Below the pieces are notes generated by a model. The model was not told the origin of the DNA, did no database searches, and saw nothing but the letters and a program-made list of their open reading frames with translations. 64,000 nt of DNA, from contig NZ_VIRN01000054.1 of the NCBI RefSeq assembly GCF_008107725.1, positions 124,001 through 188,000 of the forward strand, written 5' to 3'. Positions 3,012 through 63,360 of this stretch are shown here, in pieces (within the stretch, counting starts at the first letter, position 1; each line of letters opens with the position of its first letter). The position numbers and the translations under genes were made by a program. Origin of the DNA: Marinobacter sp. BW6. GTDB lineage: Bacteria; Pseudomonadota; Gammaproteobacteria; Pseudomonadales; Oleiphilaceae.

Positions 3012-3574
3012 TGGCAAAGATTAACCTTCGACCGTGGCGCGAAGAACTCCGTGCCGAGAAACAGAAACAGTTTGTGGTCATGATTCTGGGTGCCGCGATT
3101 ATTGCCGGTGGGCTCGTCTTCCTGTGGAAGACTGATATGGATAGCCGGATCGCCTATCAGCAGTCCCGGAACGCGTATATCGAAACAGCGACAAAGAAGC
3201 TGGACCAGCAGATCAAGGAGATCGAGAACCTCAAGCGCAAGCGGGATGAGTTGCTCGCCCGGATGCAGGTCATACAGGACCTTCAGGGCAAGCGCCCGGT
3301 TATCGTGCGAGTCTTTGACGAGTTGGTGAGGACATTGCCTGATGGTCTGTTCTATATGGACCTGAAACGAACTGGCGAGCGTCTCGATATTGTCGGCATG
3401 GCTGAGTCGAATAGCCGGGTTTCTGCACTTATGCGTCAGTTTGAGGAGTCCGAGTGGTTTACGGCTCCCGACCTCTCTAATGTTTCCGCTGCTGATAGTC
3501 GCCGGGCCGGTTACAGCCAGTTCAATCTGTCGGTTAAACAGAAAACGCCCGAGCCCGAAGGGGAGGATAAGTAA
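3011..3574 (+). CDS. pilN: Type IV pilus inner-membrane protein PilN
   Basis: Bitopic inner-membrane protein of the pilus alignment complex. The short cytoplasmic tail begins AKINLRPWREE, matching the INLLPWR-type motif by which PilN binds PilM. One membrane helix follows at about residues 21-39, then a periplasmic coiled-coil stretch (about 50-95, rich in K, E, Q and L) and a ferredoxin-like fold. PilN heterodimerises with PilO, encoded next with a one-base overlap. 187 residues is typical. Cotranscription with pilM is implied by the overlapping start and stop codons. Confidence 0.96.
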
Positions 3575-4185
3575 TGAGCCTCGCGGACTCTCTTAAAAGC
3601 TTGAATGAATTTGATATCAACGATCTCGACGTTAACAACGCCGGTATCTGGCCTGCTCCGATCAAGGCGATCGTCGTACTGATCATTTTCGGACTCATCG
3701 CTGGGGGCGGTTACTGGTTCTTTATCAAAGACCAGTATGGGCAGCTTGAGCGCGTCGAGCGGACGGAGCAGGAGCTGCGGAAGACCTACGAAGAAAAGGC
3801 CTATCAGGTGGCCAACCTTGAGGTCTTTAAAGCCCAGATGGCAGAAATGGAAGAAACTTTCGGTGCATTGGTGAGGCAGTTGCCCAGCGAGACCGAGGTG
3901 CCCGGGTTGCTTGAAGACATCACTAATACAGCTCTTGGTAACGGATTGGCGCTCCAGGAAGTGGCGCTTCAGCCGGAACGCCGGCGTGATTTCTACTCTG
4001 AGCTGCCCATTAATATCCGGGTGTCTGGCTCTTATCATGAGCTGGCCTCCTTTGTCAGTAGCGTTGCCAGTCTGCCGCGGATTGTCACGTTGCATGACTT
4101 GACCATAAAACCAACTGGCGGAGATGGAGAACGGCTTGATATGCAGGTTGTCGCTCGTACTTACCGCTACCGGGCTGGAGAATGA
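3574..4185 (+). CDS. pilO: Type IV pilus inner-membrane protein PilO
   Basis: Partner of PilN in the periplasmic alignment ring. A cytoplasmic N terminus with the segment FDINDLDVNNAGIWP precedes a single membrane helix at about residues 28-48. A short coiled coil (about 52-90) and a periplasmic domain follow, including the conserved-looking LPSETEVPGLLEDIT block, where the PilN/PilO family has its ferredoxin-like fold. The start codon overlaps the pilN stop by one base and the 3' end overlaps pilP by four bases, so translation is probably coupled through the operon. Confidence 0.96.
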   Translation: MSLADSLKSLNEFDINDLDVNNAGIWPAPIKAIVVLIIFGLIAGGGYWFFIKDQYGQLERVERTEQELRKTYEEKAYQVANLEVFKAQMAEMEETFGALVRQLPSETEVPGLLEDITNTALGNGLALQEVALQPERRRDFYSELPINIRVSGSYHELASFVSSVASLPRIVTLHDLTIKPTGGDGERLDMQVVARTYRYRAGE

Positions 4186-19334: not shown

Positions 19335-19362
19335 GGGGTTGTTGCTACCTTCCGGGTTGGCT

Positions 19363-19459
19363 GTCGGATTACGGCTGCGCCTAATCCGACCTACGCGGGA
19401 TATATCTCAGTTCAGGGCAATACGTAGGTCGGATTAGGCCCGCAGGGCCGTAATCCGAC
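19363..19459. repeat. Inverted pair of REP-like palindromes between radA and ettA
   Basis: Two palindromes sharing GTCGGATTA...TAATCCGAC arms (19363-19390 and 19428-19459) lie in opposite orientation. Their inner flanks CCTACG and CGTAGG are also complementary, so the whole block can fold as one large cruciform around about 27 unpaired bases. The layout is like paired REP units (BIMEs). It sits upstream of radA and just after the ettA stop. Confidence 0.8.
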
Positions 19460-19467
19460 ACAGGGCC

Positions 19468-21183: not shown

Positions 21184-21287
21184 GGGCGGCGGGGCTGGCC
21201 TTCCTGGATACGCTGTAAATACGTCCATGTAAGCTCGACAAAATCATCCCTGATTTTGACGATCCCGGAAGGCCAGCCCCGCCGCCC
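21184..21287. repeat. Long palindromic element A, 21-bp perfect arms
   Basis: Perfect inverted repeats of 21 bp (GGGCGGCGGGGCTGGCCTTCC-type arms) flank a 62-base interior. The interior is asymmetric: one side carries, read on the minus strand, AGCTTACATGG followed by CGTATTTACAGCGTATCC; the other side has a hairpin of CAAAATCA and TGATTTTG with a TCCC loop. The first part recurs in element B near clpB, with unrelated arms. It sits between the divergent ettA and glyA genes. Confidence 0.85.
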
Positions 21288-58655: not shown

Positions 58656-59633
58656 ATGTCATCTGAAAAACGAATCATCGCCAACTTTGTTGTGCCGCCG
58701 GAACTGAGTGATCGGCGCCTTGACCAGGCCGCGGCAGAACTGATGCCCGAACACTCCCGTTCCCGCCTGCAGTCCTGGATCAAAAGCGGCGCGTTGACGG
58801 TGAATGGTGAGGCGCGAAAGCCTCGGGACAAAGTGATGCTGGATGATCGCCTGGCGCTGGATGCCGAGCCGGAAGCTCAGGTGAGCTGGCAGGCGGAGGA
58901 GATCTCCCTGGATATTGTCTATGAGGACGAGCACTTGCTGGTCATCAACAAGCCCGCAGGCCTGGTGGTGCACCCGGCCGCCGGCCATGCCGATGGAACC
59001 CTGGTCAATGCCCTGTTGAACTATGCGCCGGAAGTCGAGAATTTGCCCAGGGCTGGAATCGTACACCGCCTCGACAAAGACACCTCAGGCATCATGGTTG
59101 TTGCCCGCAGCCTGATTGCGCACACTTCTCTGGTCGATCAGCTCCAGACCCGAACCATGGGTCGCGAGTATGAGGCTGTCGTCGTTGGCACCCTCACCGG
59201 CGGTGCAACGGTAGACGCGCCCATAGGCCGGCATCCGCGGGAACGCAAGAAAATGGCGGTTGTAGCCTCCGGCAAACCGGCGGTCACCCACTATCGTTTG
59301 GTGGAGCGTTTTGCCGCTCACACTCACGTCCGCTGCAAACTGGAAAGCGGCCGAACCCACCAGATCCGGGTTCATATGGCCCATGTCAAACATCCGCTGG
59401 TCGGAGACCCGCTCTACGGCGGTCGGCTCAGGTTGCCCAAGGGAACCACCGAAGAGCTTCGCGAGGCGCTCTCGGCGTTCAACCGCCAGGCCCTCCATGC
59501 CCGGCAGCTGACCCTTGAACATCCGGAAACCGGTGAAATCCTGAGCTGGGAGGTGGCCCTGCCTGAGGATATGGTTGCGTTGATAGAAGCCCTGCGCAAA
59601 CACGCACGGGAGCTGGACACCCGTGACTATTGA
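58656..59633 (+). CDS. rluD: 23S rRNA pseudouridine synthase RluD
   Basis: Makes pseudouridines 1911, 1915 and 1917 in helix 69 of 23S rRNA. The S4 RNA-binding domain covers about residues 17-80. The catalytic motif HRLDKDTSGIMVVA has Asp140 as the expected catalytic residue. VHPAAGH and GRTHQIRVHMAH are further family blocks. 325 residues matches. It overlaps pgeF by 11 bases; bamD-rluD-pgeF-clpB order is common in gammaproteobacteria. Confidence 0.96.
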   Translation: MSSEKRIIANFVVPPELSDRRLDQAAAELMPEHSRSRLQSWIKSGALTVNGEARKPRDKVMLDDRLALDAEPEAQVSWQAEEISLDIVYEDEHLLVINKPAGLVVHPAAGHADGTLVNALLNYAPEVENLPRAGIVHRLDKDTSGIMVVARSLIAHTSLVDQLQTRTMGREYEAVVVGTLTGGATVDAPIGRHPRERKKMAVVASGKPAVTHYRLVERFAAHTHVRCKLESGRTHQIRVHMAHVKHPLVGDPLYGGRLRLPKGTTEELREALSAFNRQALHARQLTLEHPETGEILSWEVALPEDMVALIEALRKHARELDTRDY

Positions 59634-60381
59634 AGATAACGCCCTGAAACCGGACTGGTCCGCGCCCGATAGAGTGCGGGCCATCAGCACAACTCGCAGT
59701 GGCGGTGTCAGCGGTCGACCCTGGAACAGTCTTAACCTCGGTGTTCACGTCGAAGACAATTCGGAACACGTGCAAGAGAATCGGCGAAGACTCGCGGAGT
59801 CCTTGGGACTGGATAGCGCCCGCATCGGTTGGCTCAACCAGGTACACGGTACCGAGGTGGTTGAATTAACCCCGAATAACGTCGGACAAGTCGTCAAGGC
59901 TGACGCCAGCTACACCCGTCATCCGGGCATTGTCTGCGCCATACTCACAGCCGATTGCCTGCCCGTTATTCTTGCTGATCGCGAAGGCACAGTCGTCGGC
60001 GCCGCCCATTGTGGTTGGCGAAGCCTGTGTGGCGGCGTTATCGAGCATCTGGTGAGTGCCATGGCCTTGGCCCCCGGGACACTTCAAGCCTGGCTCGGCC
60101 CGGCGATTGGTCCGGACGGCTTCGAGGTCGGCCCGGAAGTGCGTGACGCCTTCCTTGACCATGATCCCAAAGCGGGCCACGCCTTCAGAGCTGAAGGCGC
60201 TCGGCCGGGTCATTTCATGGCAGATATCTATGCACTTGCCACTTTGCGGCTGAATCATCTCGGTGTTTCCGGAGTGACTGGCGGTGGCCTGTGTACCGTT
60301 CAGGATTCAGATCGGTTTTTTTCATACCGCAGGGATGGCCGGACCGGGCGGATGGCAACGTTAATCTGGCTAACAGACTGA
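59623..60381 (+). CDS. pgeF: Multicopper-oxidase-like purine nucleoside phosphorylase (laccase domain)
   Basis: Member of the YfiH/laccase-domain family, reported to act as peptidoglycan editing factor and to have purine nucleoside phosphorylase or deaminase activity. The family blocks are QVHGTEVVEL (about 71-80), ILTADCLPVILADREG (about 107-122) and AAHCGWRSLCGGV with His129 and Cys130. CTVQDSDRFFSYRRDG lies near the end. 252 residues. The start is GTG inside the end of rluD. It probably shares the rluD transcript. Substrate is not settled by sequence. Confidence 0.92.
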   Translation: MTIEDNALKPDWSAPDRVRAISTTRSGGVSGRPWNSLNLGVHVEDNSEHVQENRRRLAESLGLDSARIGWLNQVHGTEVVELTPNNVGQVVKADASYTRHPGIVCAILTADCLPVILADREGTVVGAAHCGWRSLCGGVIEHLVSAMALAPGTLQAWLGPAIGPDGFEVGPEVRDAFLDHDPKAGHAFRAEGARPGHFMADIYALATLRLNHLGVSGVTGGGLCTVQDSDRFFSYRRDGRTGRMATLIWLTD

Positions 60382-60430
60382 CTATTAGTGTCTTTTATTG
60401 TTTGGCTCTGGTTGTAATCGAGAATTTCGG

Positions 60431-60619
60431 GGTCTGGTGCAGGACTACTTTCCAGAACTGTCTGCAGCATGGATGCTGCAGCCAAGCCTACATGGGTGAG
60501 GCCGAGCGTATATGAAGCGAAGCTTCATGCGACAGACGAACGACTGCAATCTGTGATTGCAGGCTGGACCCCGCAGGGGTATTCACGGCGTGTTCTGGAA
60601 AGTAGTCCTGCACCAGACC
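60431..60619. repeat. Long palindromic element B, 28-bp perfect arms, split core
   Basis: Perfect 28-bp inverted repeats flank 133 bases. The interior contains four further hairpins: CTGCAGC...GCTGCAG, ATGAAGC...GCTTCAT, CTGCAAT...ATTGCAG and ACCCC...GGGGT. AGCCTACATGG near the left and GTATTCACGGCGTGTTC near the right match, in the same order, the core of element A, but about 80 bases lie between them here against two there. The arms share no sequence with those of element A. Confidence 0.85.
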
Positions 60620-60683
60620 TGCACCCAAGTCCCAATCTCAAACTGACGGCCGTCAATTTTCTGACGAATACACCGAGCCTCCG

Positions 60684-60711
60684 CTTGAAGTCCCTCGACT
60701 TGCCCCTACAT
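60684..60711 (+). promoter_or_regulatory. Sigma-32 (heat-shock) promoter of clpB
   Basis: CTTGAAG is followed after 12 bases by CCCCTACATT, close to the sigma-32 pattern CTTGAAA and CCCCATNT. It lies about 70 bases before the clpB ATG, the right place for this heat-shock gene. Confidence 0.55.
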
Positions 60712-60783
60712 TAACTGTCAAAGCAATCGAATATCCGCCACCCACGGCACCATGGTATTCGCAGAAATTTGGGGAAAGTAGAC

Positions 60784-63360
60784 ATGAGAATCGACAAGCT
60801 GACCAGCAAGTTGCAGACCGCCCTCGCGGACGCACAATCCATCGCGGTCGGAAAAGATCACAACTTCATCGAGCCGGTCCACCTGATGCAGGCGCTACTT
60901 GATCAGGAAGGCAGTGCCATCAAGCCACTGCTCAAACAGGCCGGCGCGGAACCCGGACGGGTTCGCCAGGCTATCGCCCGGGAAATCGAAAACCTGCCCG
61001 AAGTGCAGGGATCGGCCGGCGATGTCTCAATGTCCAACGACATGGGTCGTCTTTTCAATATTGCCGATAAGCTGGCCCAGAAGCGCAAGGACCAGTACAT
61101 CTCCAGTGAGCTTATGCTGCTGGCCGCCCTGCAAGACCGGGGCACACTTGGCCGAGTGCTTCGGGAGCAGGGCGTTGATAAGGCTGCCCTGGAAAAGGCA
61201 ATTGACGAGGTTCGCGGCGGTGAAGCTGTCAACGATGCCAGCGCCGAAGAAAACCGTCAGGCCCTGTCCAAATACACCATTGATCTTACCGAGCGAGCCG
61301 AGGCCGGCAAGCTGGACCCGGTGATTGGTCGAGACGATGAAATCCGCCGAACCATCCAGGTCCTCCAGCGCCGTCGGAAAAACAACCCGGTCCTCATCGG
61401 TGAGCCCGGCGTGGGTAAAACCGCCATCGTCGAGGGGTTGGCCCAGCGCATCGTCAACGGCGAGGTGCCGGATGGCCTCAAGGACAAGAAAGTCCTGTCA
61501 CTCGACATGGGCGCCCTGATTGCCGGCGCCAAGTTCCGGGGTGAGTTCGAGGAGCGCCTGAAAGCTGTTTTGAACGAATTGTCCAAGCAGGAAGGCCAGA
61601 TCATCTTGTTCATCGACGAGATTCACACCATGGTCGGTGCCGGTAAGGCTGAGGGATCCATGGATGCCGGCAACATGCTCAAGCCGGCGCTGGCTCGCGG
61701 TGAACTGCACTGTGTGGGCGCGACCACCCTGGATGAGTACCGTGAAAACATCGAGAAAGACGCCGCCCTTGAGCGTCGCTTCCAGAAAGTGCTGGTCAGC
61801 GAGCCCAGCGAAGAAGATACCATCGCAATCCTGCGGGGCCTGAAAGAACGTTATGAGGTGCACCACGGGGTTGAGGTGACCGATGGTGCCATCATTGCCG
61901 CCGCCAAGCTGTCCCACCGTTATATTGCCGATCGGCAGTTGCCGGACAAGGCCATTGATCTGGTGGATGAGGCTGCCTCCCAGATTCGCATGGAAATGGA
62001 TTCGAAGCCCGAGCCCCTGGATCGTCTTGAGCGCCGCCTGATTCAGTTGAAAATCGAGCGTGAGGCTCTCAAGAAAGAGACAGATGCGGCCTCTAAAAAG
62101 CGTCTGTCGGAGCTGTCGGACGTGATCACCGGGGTCGAGCGTGAATACGCCGATCTGGAAGAAGTATGGAATACCGAAAAGGCTGCGTTGCATGGCTCCC
62201 AGAAGATCAAGAGCCGTCTGGAGCAGGCCCGGATCGATCTGGAGAATGCCCGTCGCGCCGGCGACCTTGGCAAGATGTCCGAGCTCCAGTATGGCCAGAT
62301 CCCTGAGCTTGAGCGTCAGCTGGATATGGCCAGCCAGGCCGAAATGATGGAAATGAAGCTGCTCCGGAACCGGGTGACCGATGAGGAGATTGCAGAGATT
62401 GTTTCCAAGTGGACCGGCATTCCGGTGTCCAAGATGCTCGAAGGTGAGCGCGACAAGCTGATGCGCATGGAAGAGGCGCTTCATGGTCGGGTTATCGGCC
62501 AGGATGAGGCGGTTGAAGCGGTTTCCAACGCGGTGCGTCGTTCCCGGGCCGGATTGTCTGACCCCAATCGCCCCAACGGTTCGTTCCTTTTCCTTGGTCC
62601 GACGGGTGTGGGTAAGACCGAGCTTTGTAAGGCTTTGGCGTCCTTCCTGTTCGATACCGAGGAGGCCATGGTTCGCATCGACATGTCCGAATTCATGGAG
62701 AAGCATTCCGTGGCCCGCCTGATTGGCGCGCCTCCGGGCTATGTCGGCTACGAGGAAGGTGGTTACCTCACTGAAGCAGTTCGTCGCAGGCCGTATTCCG
62801 TGTTGCTGCTGGATGAGGTGGAAAAAGCCCATCCGGATGTGTTCAATATTCTTCTGCAGGTACTTGAGGATGGTCGCCTGACGGACGGGCAGGGCAGGAC
62901 CGTCGACTTCCGGAACACGGTCATTGTCATGACGTCAAACCTCGGCTCGGACATCATCCAGCAGAAAGCGGGCGAGGAGAACTACGAGGTAATGAAGAAT
63001 GCCGTCATGGAAGTTGTCGGCACCCATTTTCGCCCTGAGTTCATCAACCGCGTGGATGAAGTGGTGGTGTTCCACCCGCTGGCGGAGAGCCAGATTCAGG
63101 GTATTGCTAGGATTCAGATCGAGTCTCTGAGCAAACGCCTGAAAGAACAGGATATGAAGCTGGAGCTGGATGACGCCGCGATGGAATTGCTGGCCGAAGT
63201 CGGTTATGACCCGGTCTACGGTGCGCGGCCTTTGAAGCGGGCTATTCAGCGGATGATTGAAAACCCATTGGCCCAGCGACTGCTCCAGGGAGAATTTGTA
63301 CCGGGTGATGTAATTCGAGGTACGGTGAAGGAACATCACCTCGATTTTTCCAAGGCCTAA
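60784..63360 (+). CDS. clpB: Protein disaggregase ClpB
   Basis: Hexameric AAA+ chaperone that threads aggregated proteins together with DnaK. The N domain covers about 1-145. The first AAA+ module has Walker A GEPGVGKT at 206-213 and [14 protein letters not shown]. The M-domain coiled coil lies at about 400-525. The second module has Walker A GPTGVGKT at 605-612 and [14 protein letters not shown]. 858 residues, like E. coli ClpB. The ATG follows GGGGAAAG; a TTG fifteen bases upstream is rejected. No ClpP-binding IGF/L loop was noted. Confidence 0.97.

Follow-up and report, generated by a model that had tools for sequence, protein, structure and literature searches.

Small palindromic repeats are often taken for DNA relics. 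NEMIS and MITEs occur in short and long forms and end in terminal inverted repeats of 26-27 bp that are conserved between copies. NEMIS sizes of 108 and 158 bp are given in PMC2267715. REPs and REPINs are GTAG- or CGTC-tagged repeats of 20-40 bp with a short stem and a Y1/RAYT transposase. PMC3733652 describes REP dimers as predominantly head-to-head, and PMC3116915 reports compensatory changes in REPINs. The MRSC-65-2 repeat motif is described as a single long stem (PMC11109978). Csr/Rsm-sequestering RNAs such as CsrB, RsmY and RsmZ carry hairpins with ANGGAN loops at bridging distance. According to PMC7652899, such hexaloops are bound by RsmE, a member of the Csr/Rsm proteins, CsrA can bridge two sites that lie 10-63 nt from each other (optimum over 18 nt), and the SELEX consensus is RUACARGGAUGU. 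No description of the repeat family analyzed here was found in a literature search covering open-licence PMC papers, where the core words led to a single entry, on PCR prediction.

The initial annotation of the window (the whole 64,000-nt stretch of DNA analyzed) singled out a palindrome, element B, whose core was said to match that of a second palindrome, element A, with its two halves split by about 80 bases. The arms of element B (60431-60619) are perfect over 28 bp and enclose an inner hairpin, followed by a second one that is opened by 81 additional nt. The features are:

60431..60458, plus strand: left outer arm of element B (5' side of helix P1), 28 bp, 100% complementary to 60592-60619
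60462..60481, plus strand: inner hairpin P2, CTGCAGC-ATGGAT-GCTGCAG, with hexaloop ANGGAN, read in the sequence and seen in the fold
60485..60495, plus strand: 5' half of hairpin P3 (first core word AGCCTACATGG)
60496..60578, plus strand: extra block that marks the long form; the two core words lie 83 nt apart here and 2 nt apart in short orthologs
60579..60591, plus strand: 3' half of hairpin P3 with the TTCAC bulge and GGCGT
60579-60595, plus strand: second core word GTATTCACGGCGTGTTC of element B
60592..60619, plus strand: right outer arm of element B (3' side of helix P1), complementary to the left arm
59623..60381, plus strand: neighboring gene Cu-oxidase_4 (ORF with a PF02578 match)
60769..63360, plus strand: neighboring gene clpB (ORF with Clp_N, AAA and ClpB_D2-small domains), whose true start may be the ATG at 60785
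21184..21287, minus strand: element A, a short-form member of the same repeat family as element B, found by pattern and model

Read inwards, element B runs from the P1 arm through P2 (stem CTGCAGC, loop ATGGAT), AGCCTACATGG, 83 nt and GTATTCACGGCGT to the other arm. The observation that opened this analysis is real: the arms are perfect (100% complementary) with 133 nt between them, the longest arm pair listed for the window at distances up to 250 nt, and the RNA-fold z-score of the element is -10.8. Element B lies between clpB and the gene at 59623..60381, which we take to be PgeF/YfiH-like, both on the plus strand. A stem-plus-T-run intrinsic terminator was absent from 60370-60800 (loops of 3-8 nt covered), and no Rfam family scored above its gathering score across the window, where four weak matches appeared at E up to 10 (E 3.6-10). 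Upstream of clpB, a CTTGAAGTC...CCCCTACATT block (60684-60714), presumably sigma-32-like, is retained by eye in nearly all ortholog gaps (L207-L236).

Element A has arms of 26 nt (21184-21209 and 21262-21287) that are 96% complementary, and its core lies on the minus strand as AGCTTACATGG, AC, GTATTTACAGCGT, which are diverged copies of element B's two words. The core is common to both elements though not identical, so the claim of a common core in the same layout stands for the presence of the words and fails for their identity. The described split is confirmed: 83 nt separate the core words in B versus 2 nt in A and in B's short orthologs, and the inner part is 133 nt in B versus 52 nt in those orthologs. 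Elsewhere in the window (19362-19460), nested inverted repeats surround CGTAGGTCGGATTAGGC outside the element A/B family; this cluster resembles GTAG-type REPs.

A degenerate core pattern was used to search the genome and hit 14 places, and the reversed control pattern hit none. The copies follow a strict plan with arms of 26-30 bp, an inner part of 52-54 nt and a total of 104-114 nt. The sole exception is L017 (23, 38 and 84, without P2), which was omitted when a covariance model was built from the other 13 copies. The model gave 58 matches in this genome at E up to 1, of which 56 were used besides element B; those dropped were C23:480486 minus, the same palindrome read backwards, and a partial match on element B. 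The existence of this family (14 versus 0 pattern hits, 56 model matches besides B) rejects chance as the source of the likeness between A and B, an outcome on which the annotation had staked its model. Across 58 searched genomes, this one included, the model matched 41, comprising every one of the 37 from the genus and 4 of the 21 outside it. Copy numbers in matched genomes run from 3 to at least 71, and two relatives searched singly have 80 and 105. Among the matches listed, the core is present in many Gammaproteobacteria, with the pattern found in Marinobacter, Stenotrophomonas, Xanthomonas, Microbulbifer, Rheinheimera, Shewanella, Idiomarina, methanotrophs and others. Several core subtypes live together in one genome, and all of them keep the AGC...GCG ends of P3 (the bulge being subtype-specific) and the two loops.

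Blastn searches of plasmids and phages, one query each, found no copy, PgeF had no match among viral contigs, and the core pattern occurs in 9 stretches of IMG/VR. Rfam models run on 12 loci with copies found only a tRNA away from the element, and the flanks show only weak conserved tails (CTCCRAAG-like) about 15 nt before and 4 nt after the arms. In L093 (a Saccharophagus MAG), 3112-3745 holds four tandem copies at about 180-nt spacing, unlike the usual facing pairs. Copies of the Rheinheimera type (L082, L097, L104, L106) have a P1 of only about 3-6 bp beside the core, perhaps followed by an internal loop, and are possibly another form of the element. The family is an interspersed structured element of about 109 nt (short) or about 190 nt (long), and most genomes in the genus, though not every one, contain dozens of copies.

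The arms carry the main evidence. Within the genome they are 28 bp and nearly perfect, and their sequence differs from copy to copy. Left arms of 54 copies average 49% identity; the inner 10 nt reach 61% and the outer 18 nt 42%, where composition alone would give 34%, and the best match between any two does not exceed 75% of positions. These counts omit C34:519293 (25 bits, imperfect) and C12:728101 (without P2). The assertion that the arms of A and B are unrelated thus holds in that arms differ between copies and needs amending for the inner 10 bp, which are biased alike; arms identical genome-wide, which would have contradicted the variable-arm model, are not what was found. Three copies (C12:1547748, C12:1431143 and C12:1517319) combine an identical 54-nt inner part with different arms. 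The 13-copy alignment has 26 of 28 arm pairs changed on both sides, with a score of 0.81 versus 0.23 for shuffled and at most 0.23 for slid arms.

Arm pairs were classified in the 54 copies, 28 per copy, as Watson-Crick (1436), G.U (43), A.C (4) and other (29). A G.U pair on one DNA strand is an A.C pair on the other and the copies are oriented by their cores, so equal numbers are expected without single-strand selection. The 43:4 ratio on the core strand (binomial p = 3e-9) therefore indicates selection on one folded strand, and argues against arm copying or a cruciform. The ratio holds in the four neighbor-orientation classes (11:1, 13:1, 10:0 and 9:1, with 10:0 where both neighbors are reversed), and the one copy overlapping a gene end has 0:1. 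Other records supplied 134 copies, located by their cores and with arms paired by symmetric score. The ratio is 73:9 in 79 of these; the remaining 55 were dropped for arms under 18 bp or score 12, an inner part outside 50-55 nt, or duplication. In 23 of 30 long forms it is 14:1, the 7 with an arm score under 14 being left out. For 49 of the 54 copies, folding favors the core strand over its complement. These counts support the conclusion that selection acts on a single folded strand, the core strand, and the family, fold and strand are well supported.

The pgeF-clpB gap was compared across species by fetching it through PgeF, which matched 99 of 100 genomes of the genus, and taking 30 loci. 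The element is present in 18; the other 12 lack it or gave no model match, so hosts do not rely on the copy at this site. The P2 stem of element B recurs in 17 of the 18 filled orthologs, with L213 one base off. A table of 17 species, which omits L213 and L246 (P2 or core outside the search expression), contains 428 Watson-Crick pairs in 442 arm cells, 11 G.U, 1 A.C and 2 other. Left-arm identity averages 56% over these species versus 93% for the inner part and core of the 15 short ones, the two long forms being left out of the core figure. Sums over species pairs give 1485 paired versus 136 single differences, which have shared ancestry and are not independent. Near relatives differ by one paired change (L208/L211) or three (L207/L210) and distant ones by ten or more. 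Paired changes that are few in near relatives and many in far ones show that arm sequence drifts pair by pair and is not rebuilt in one step. Some near pairs have as many or more single changes (L212/L214 with 3 paired and 4 single, L219/L222 with 1 and 2), as would be seen if some paired changes were still incomplete.

The annotation had offered two explanations for variable yet self-complementary arms: selection for a folded single strand, or a copying mechanism that regenerates the second arm. The first is supported by the excess of G.U over A.C in four sets (43:4, 73:9, 11:1 and 14:1) together with paired changes at a fixed locus. The second finds no support on either point, as copying would give equal G.U and A.C and the ortholog arms show few paired changes near and many far. 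Arm conversion and cruciform formation are likewise disfavored by the strand asymmetry (43:4, 73:9). The broader possibility of palindrome upkeep at the DNA level, by template switching, arm-to-arm correction or cruciform binding with no single-strand selection, would fit the near-perfect arms and the scarcity of intermediates, but its G.U:A.C ratio should be near one unless correction is itself core-strand-specific, and we judge it very improbable.

Filled and empty sites were compared for L221/L225 and L235/L231. The differences exceed the palindrome, and by eye there is no clear target duplication. Of the versions that a comparison of related loci was expected to reveal, empty sites and elements with and without the block were found. 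In L226 (G002) the complete element sits at the site in the opposite orientation to that of the other 17 filled orthologs; recombination between its two arms may have flipped it.

Of 56 copies in this genome, 55 lie between genes and one overlaps a gene end. The neighbors are oriented (+,+) 15, (+,-) 15, (-,-) 13 and (-,+) 12, giving no gene-orientation bias in this genome (15 versus 13 for the two codirectional classes). One reading is miniature mobile DNA of the REP/REPIN kind, in which the core strand folds as single-stranded DNA, is moved by a loop-reading transposase and leaves copies as footprints. The many intergenic copies without gene-orientation bias, a patchy copy number (0 to at least 71), the filled and empty sites, the compensatory changes reported for REPINs (PMC3116915) and the mostly 5' to 5' arrangement of close pairs, like the predominant head-to-head REP dimers (PMC3733652), all speak for it. 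In two single-contig relatives, 15 of 15 close pairs face 5' to 5' (among the matches listed, 72 of 80 and 78 of 105), as do 4 of 4 in this genome and 9 of 15 elsewhere; 47-236 nt lie between 5'-facing partners in 13 of 15 listed pairs (L049, L025, L048, L036 and others). Some spacers of such pairs contain other REP-like palindromes.

Several results weigh against mobile DNA. A search for Y1/RAYT transposases (PF01797, E up to 0.001) gave no match in this genome or in the high-copy genomes G005, G008, G009, G019, G021, G022 and G023, so RAYT mobilization was rejected for this genome, which has no Y1_Tnp. Recent copying is not seen (54 copies share at most 75% of left-arm positions), and the fold is kept at one site over deep divergence, which moving DNA would not need. 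A role as replication-strand single-stranded DNA was rejected for want of bias: 70 versus 80 of 150 copies in two relatives (among the matches listed, 72 of 80 and 78 of 105), with origin and terminus placed by visual reading of ten GC-skew samples in each genome. We regard mobile DNA as possible but rather unlikely.

An RNA hairpin acting in mRNA 3' or 5' regions, as a terminator, stabilizer or RNase III site on read-through transcripts of the neighbors, would suit an intergenic, very stable element whose 28-bp duplex is long enough for RNase III. In other species convergent contexts exceed divergent ones, 23 to 4, by a crude ORF caller that placed 34 of 91 copies inside ORFs and was not relied on. 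The same counts show no sense bias ((+,+) 10, (-,-) 17), nor is there one in this genome, a terminator-like site is absent at element B, and the strand asymmetry persists where both neighbors are opposed (10:0). This explanation is thus quite improbable. A sigma-70 promoter of the element's own was rejected, as no such signal was found upstream (up-plus versus down-minus, p = 0.27).

The extra block of element B belongs to a recurrent long form. A similar block is present in 82 of 124 genomes of the genus, this one included, and in 30 of 30 copies read (B included), which span several core subtypes, it occupies the same spot of P3; the arms pair well in 23 of these. At the pgeF-clpB site the block occurs in three species: in B, in L246, whose block is identical to B's over 88 nt and which was placed at the site by its flanks, and in L260 (same place as L217). 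B's closest relatives (L208-L214) lack it there. Folded alone, the block is slightly better than shuffles (z = -1.89, with 7 of 200 shuffles as good). The block is a recurrent module of a long form; the suggestion of a second element nested in the first is right about recurrence, but the block was never seen free and was at one spot in all 30 copies.

The hexaloops suggest what the folded strand might do. Short forms present two ANGGAN hexaloops 23-25 nt apart. ANGGA is found in 53 of 54 P2 loops and 54 of 54 P3 loops of this genome, with N varying, and outside it P2 has ANGGA in 67 of 79 copies and NNGGA in 78 of 79. Because the search pattern included the P3 loop and model R1 derives from copies with GGA loops, only the P2 counts are independent elsewhere. 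P3 of one subtype (C12:1364707) reads GUACAGGGAUGU, which fits the SELEX consensus RUACARGGAUGU (PMC7652899). Long forms such as B have an interrupted P3 loop, and the second ANGGA site is thereby lost or moved; B keeps only its P2 loop intact. ANGGA loops at bridging distance and the SELEX fit make CsrA the best candidate partner of the loops, and the function is put forward as a reasoned proposal from sequence. RsmA binding to Xanthomonas RsmU was not abolished when all four GGA motifs were changed (PMC7694677), so in that account GGA motifs are not always required.

csrA was found in 57 of the 58 genomes searched, low-copy ones included, all but the 62%-complete G032, so csrA does not track element copy number. 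Extra csrA-like genes occur in G008, G023, G035 and G051, with up to 9 in G051 (70 element matches). The Rfam RsmZ model had one match below cut-off in 38 genomes, which says nothing on Rsm RNAs here.

In the proposed mechanism, the core strand would fold as a three-way junction of the 28-bp outer helix P1 and hairpins P2 and P3. The folded strand would be RNA, its two loops could dock one Csr/Rsm (CsrA) dimer, and transcripts carrying the element would bind or titrate CsrA. The 28-bp helix would mainly need to be double-stranded, so that its sequence could drift as long as both sides changed together. A REP-like repeat kept as a structured, perhaps CsrA-docking, RNA is the best reading of these sequence comparisons, offered tentatively and with slightly less than even confidence. 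The absence of gene-orientation bias and of a sigma-70 signal stands against it, as it leaves the transcript unexplained. The presence of csrA in low-copy genomes, the lack of an Rfam match, the interrupted P3 loop of long forms, the inverted element of L226, the 12 gaps that are empty or unmatched and the RsmU result also count against it. The fuller picture, in which Gammaproteobacteria would hold dozens of dispersed two-site CsrA docks with free-sequence duplex clamps that jointly tune or titrate CsrA, the long form adding a module at the tip of one hairpin, is a conjecture that we consider doubtful. Should the loops indeed bind CsrA, then how many copies there are, and in what state, would form a hidden layer of a global regulatory circuit across many environmental bacteria.

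Pair statistics here reveal which strand of a small palindromic repeat stays folded, and the signal spans dozens of copies per genome, including those whose neighbors both run in the opposite direction. The G.U versus A.C count is a simple test applicable to other repeat families.

The family is REP-like in habit and distinct in size, plan and variable arms. It shares with REPs and REPINs the many intergenic palindromic copies, compensatory changes and uneven distribution (PMC3733652, PMC3116915) and the head-to-head dimers, seen in 15 of 15 close pairs of two relatives among the matches listed. It differs in its 109-190 nt length, three-way junction and variable 28-bp arms: arms that share at most 75% identity replace the short stem with a GTAG or CGTC tag, and PF01797 has 0 matches in this genome. 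The short and long forms recall NEMIS and MITEs, whose inverted repeats are conserved where the arms here differ. Like MRSC-65-2, the family has dozens of copies per genome and strong covariation, and the UYCCGG word of that motif also occurs in some arms here (PMC11109978); the published description of that motif as a single long stem would set the two apart. With CsrB, RsmY and RsmZ the family shares ANGGAN hairpin loops at bridging distance (PMC7652899). The two or more ANGGA loops of Csr/Rsm-sequestering RNAs are found in its short forms, whereas B keeps the P2 loop alone. Unlike those RNAs, it consists of dozens of dispersed copies for which a sigma-70 promoter of their own and an Rfam match were not found, each closed by a 28-bp clamp helix.
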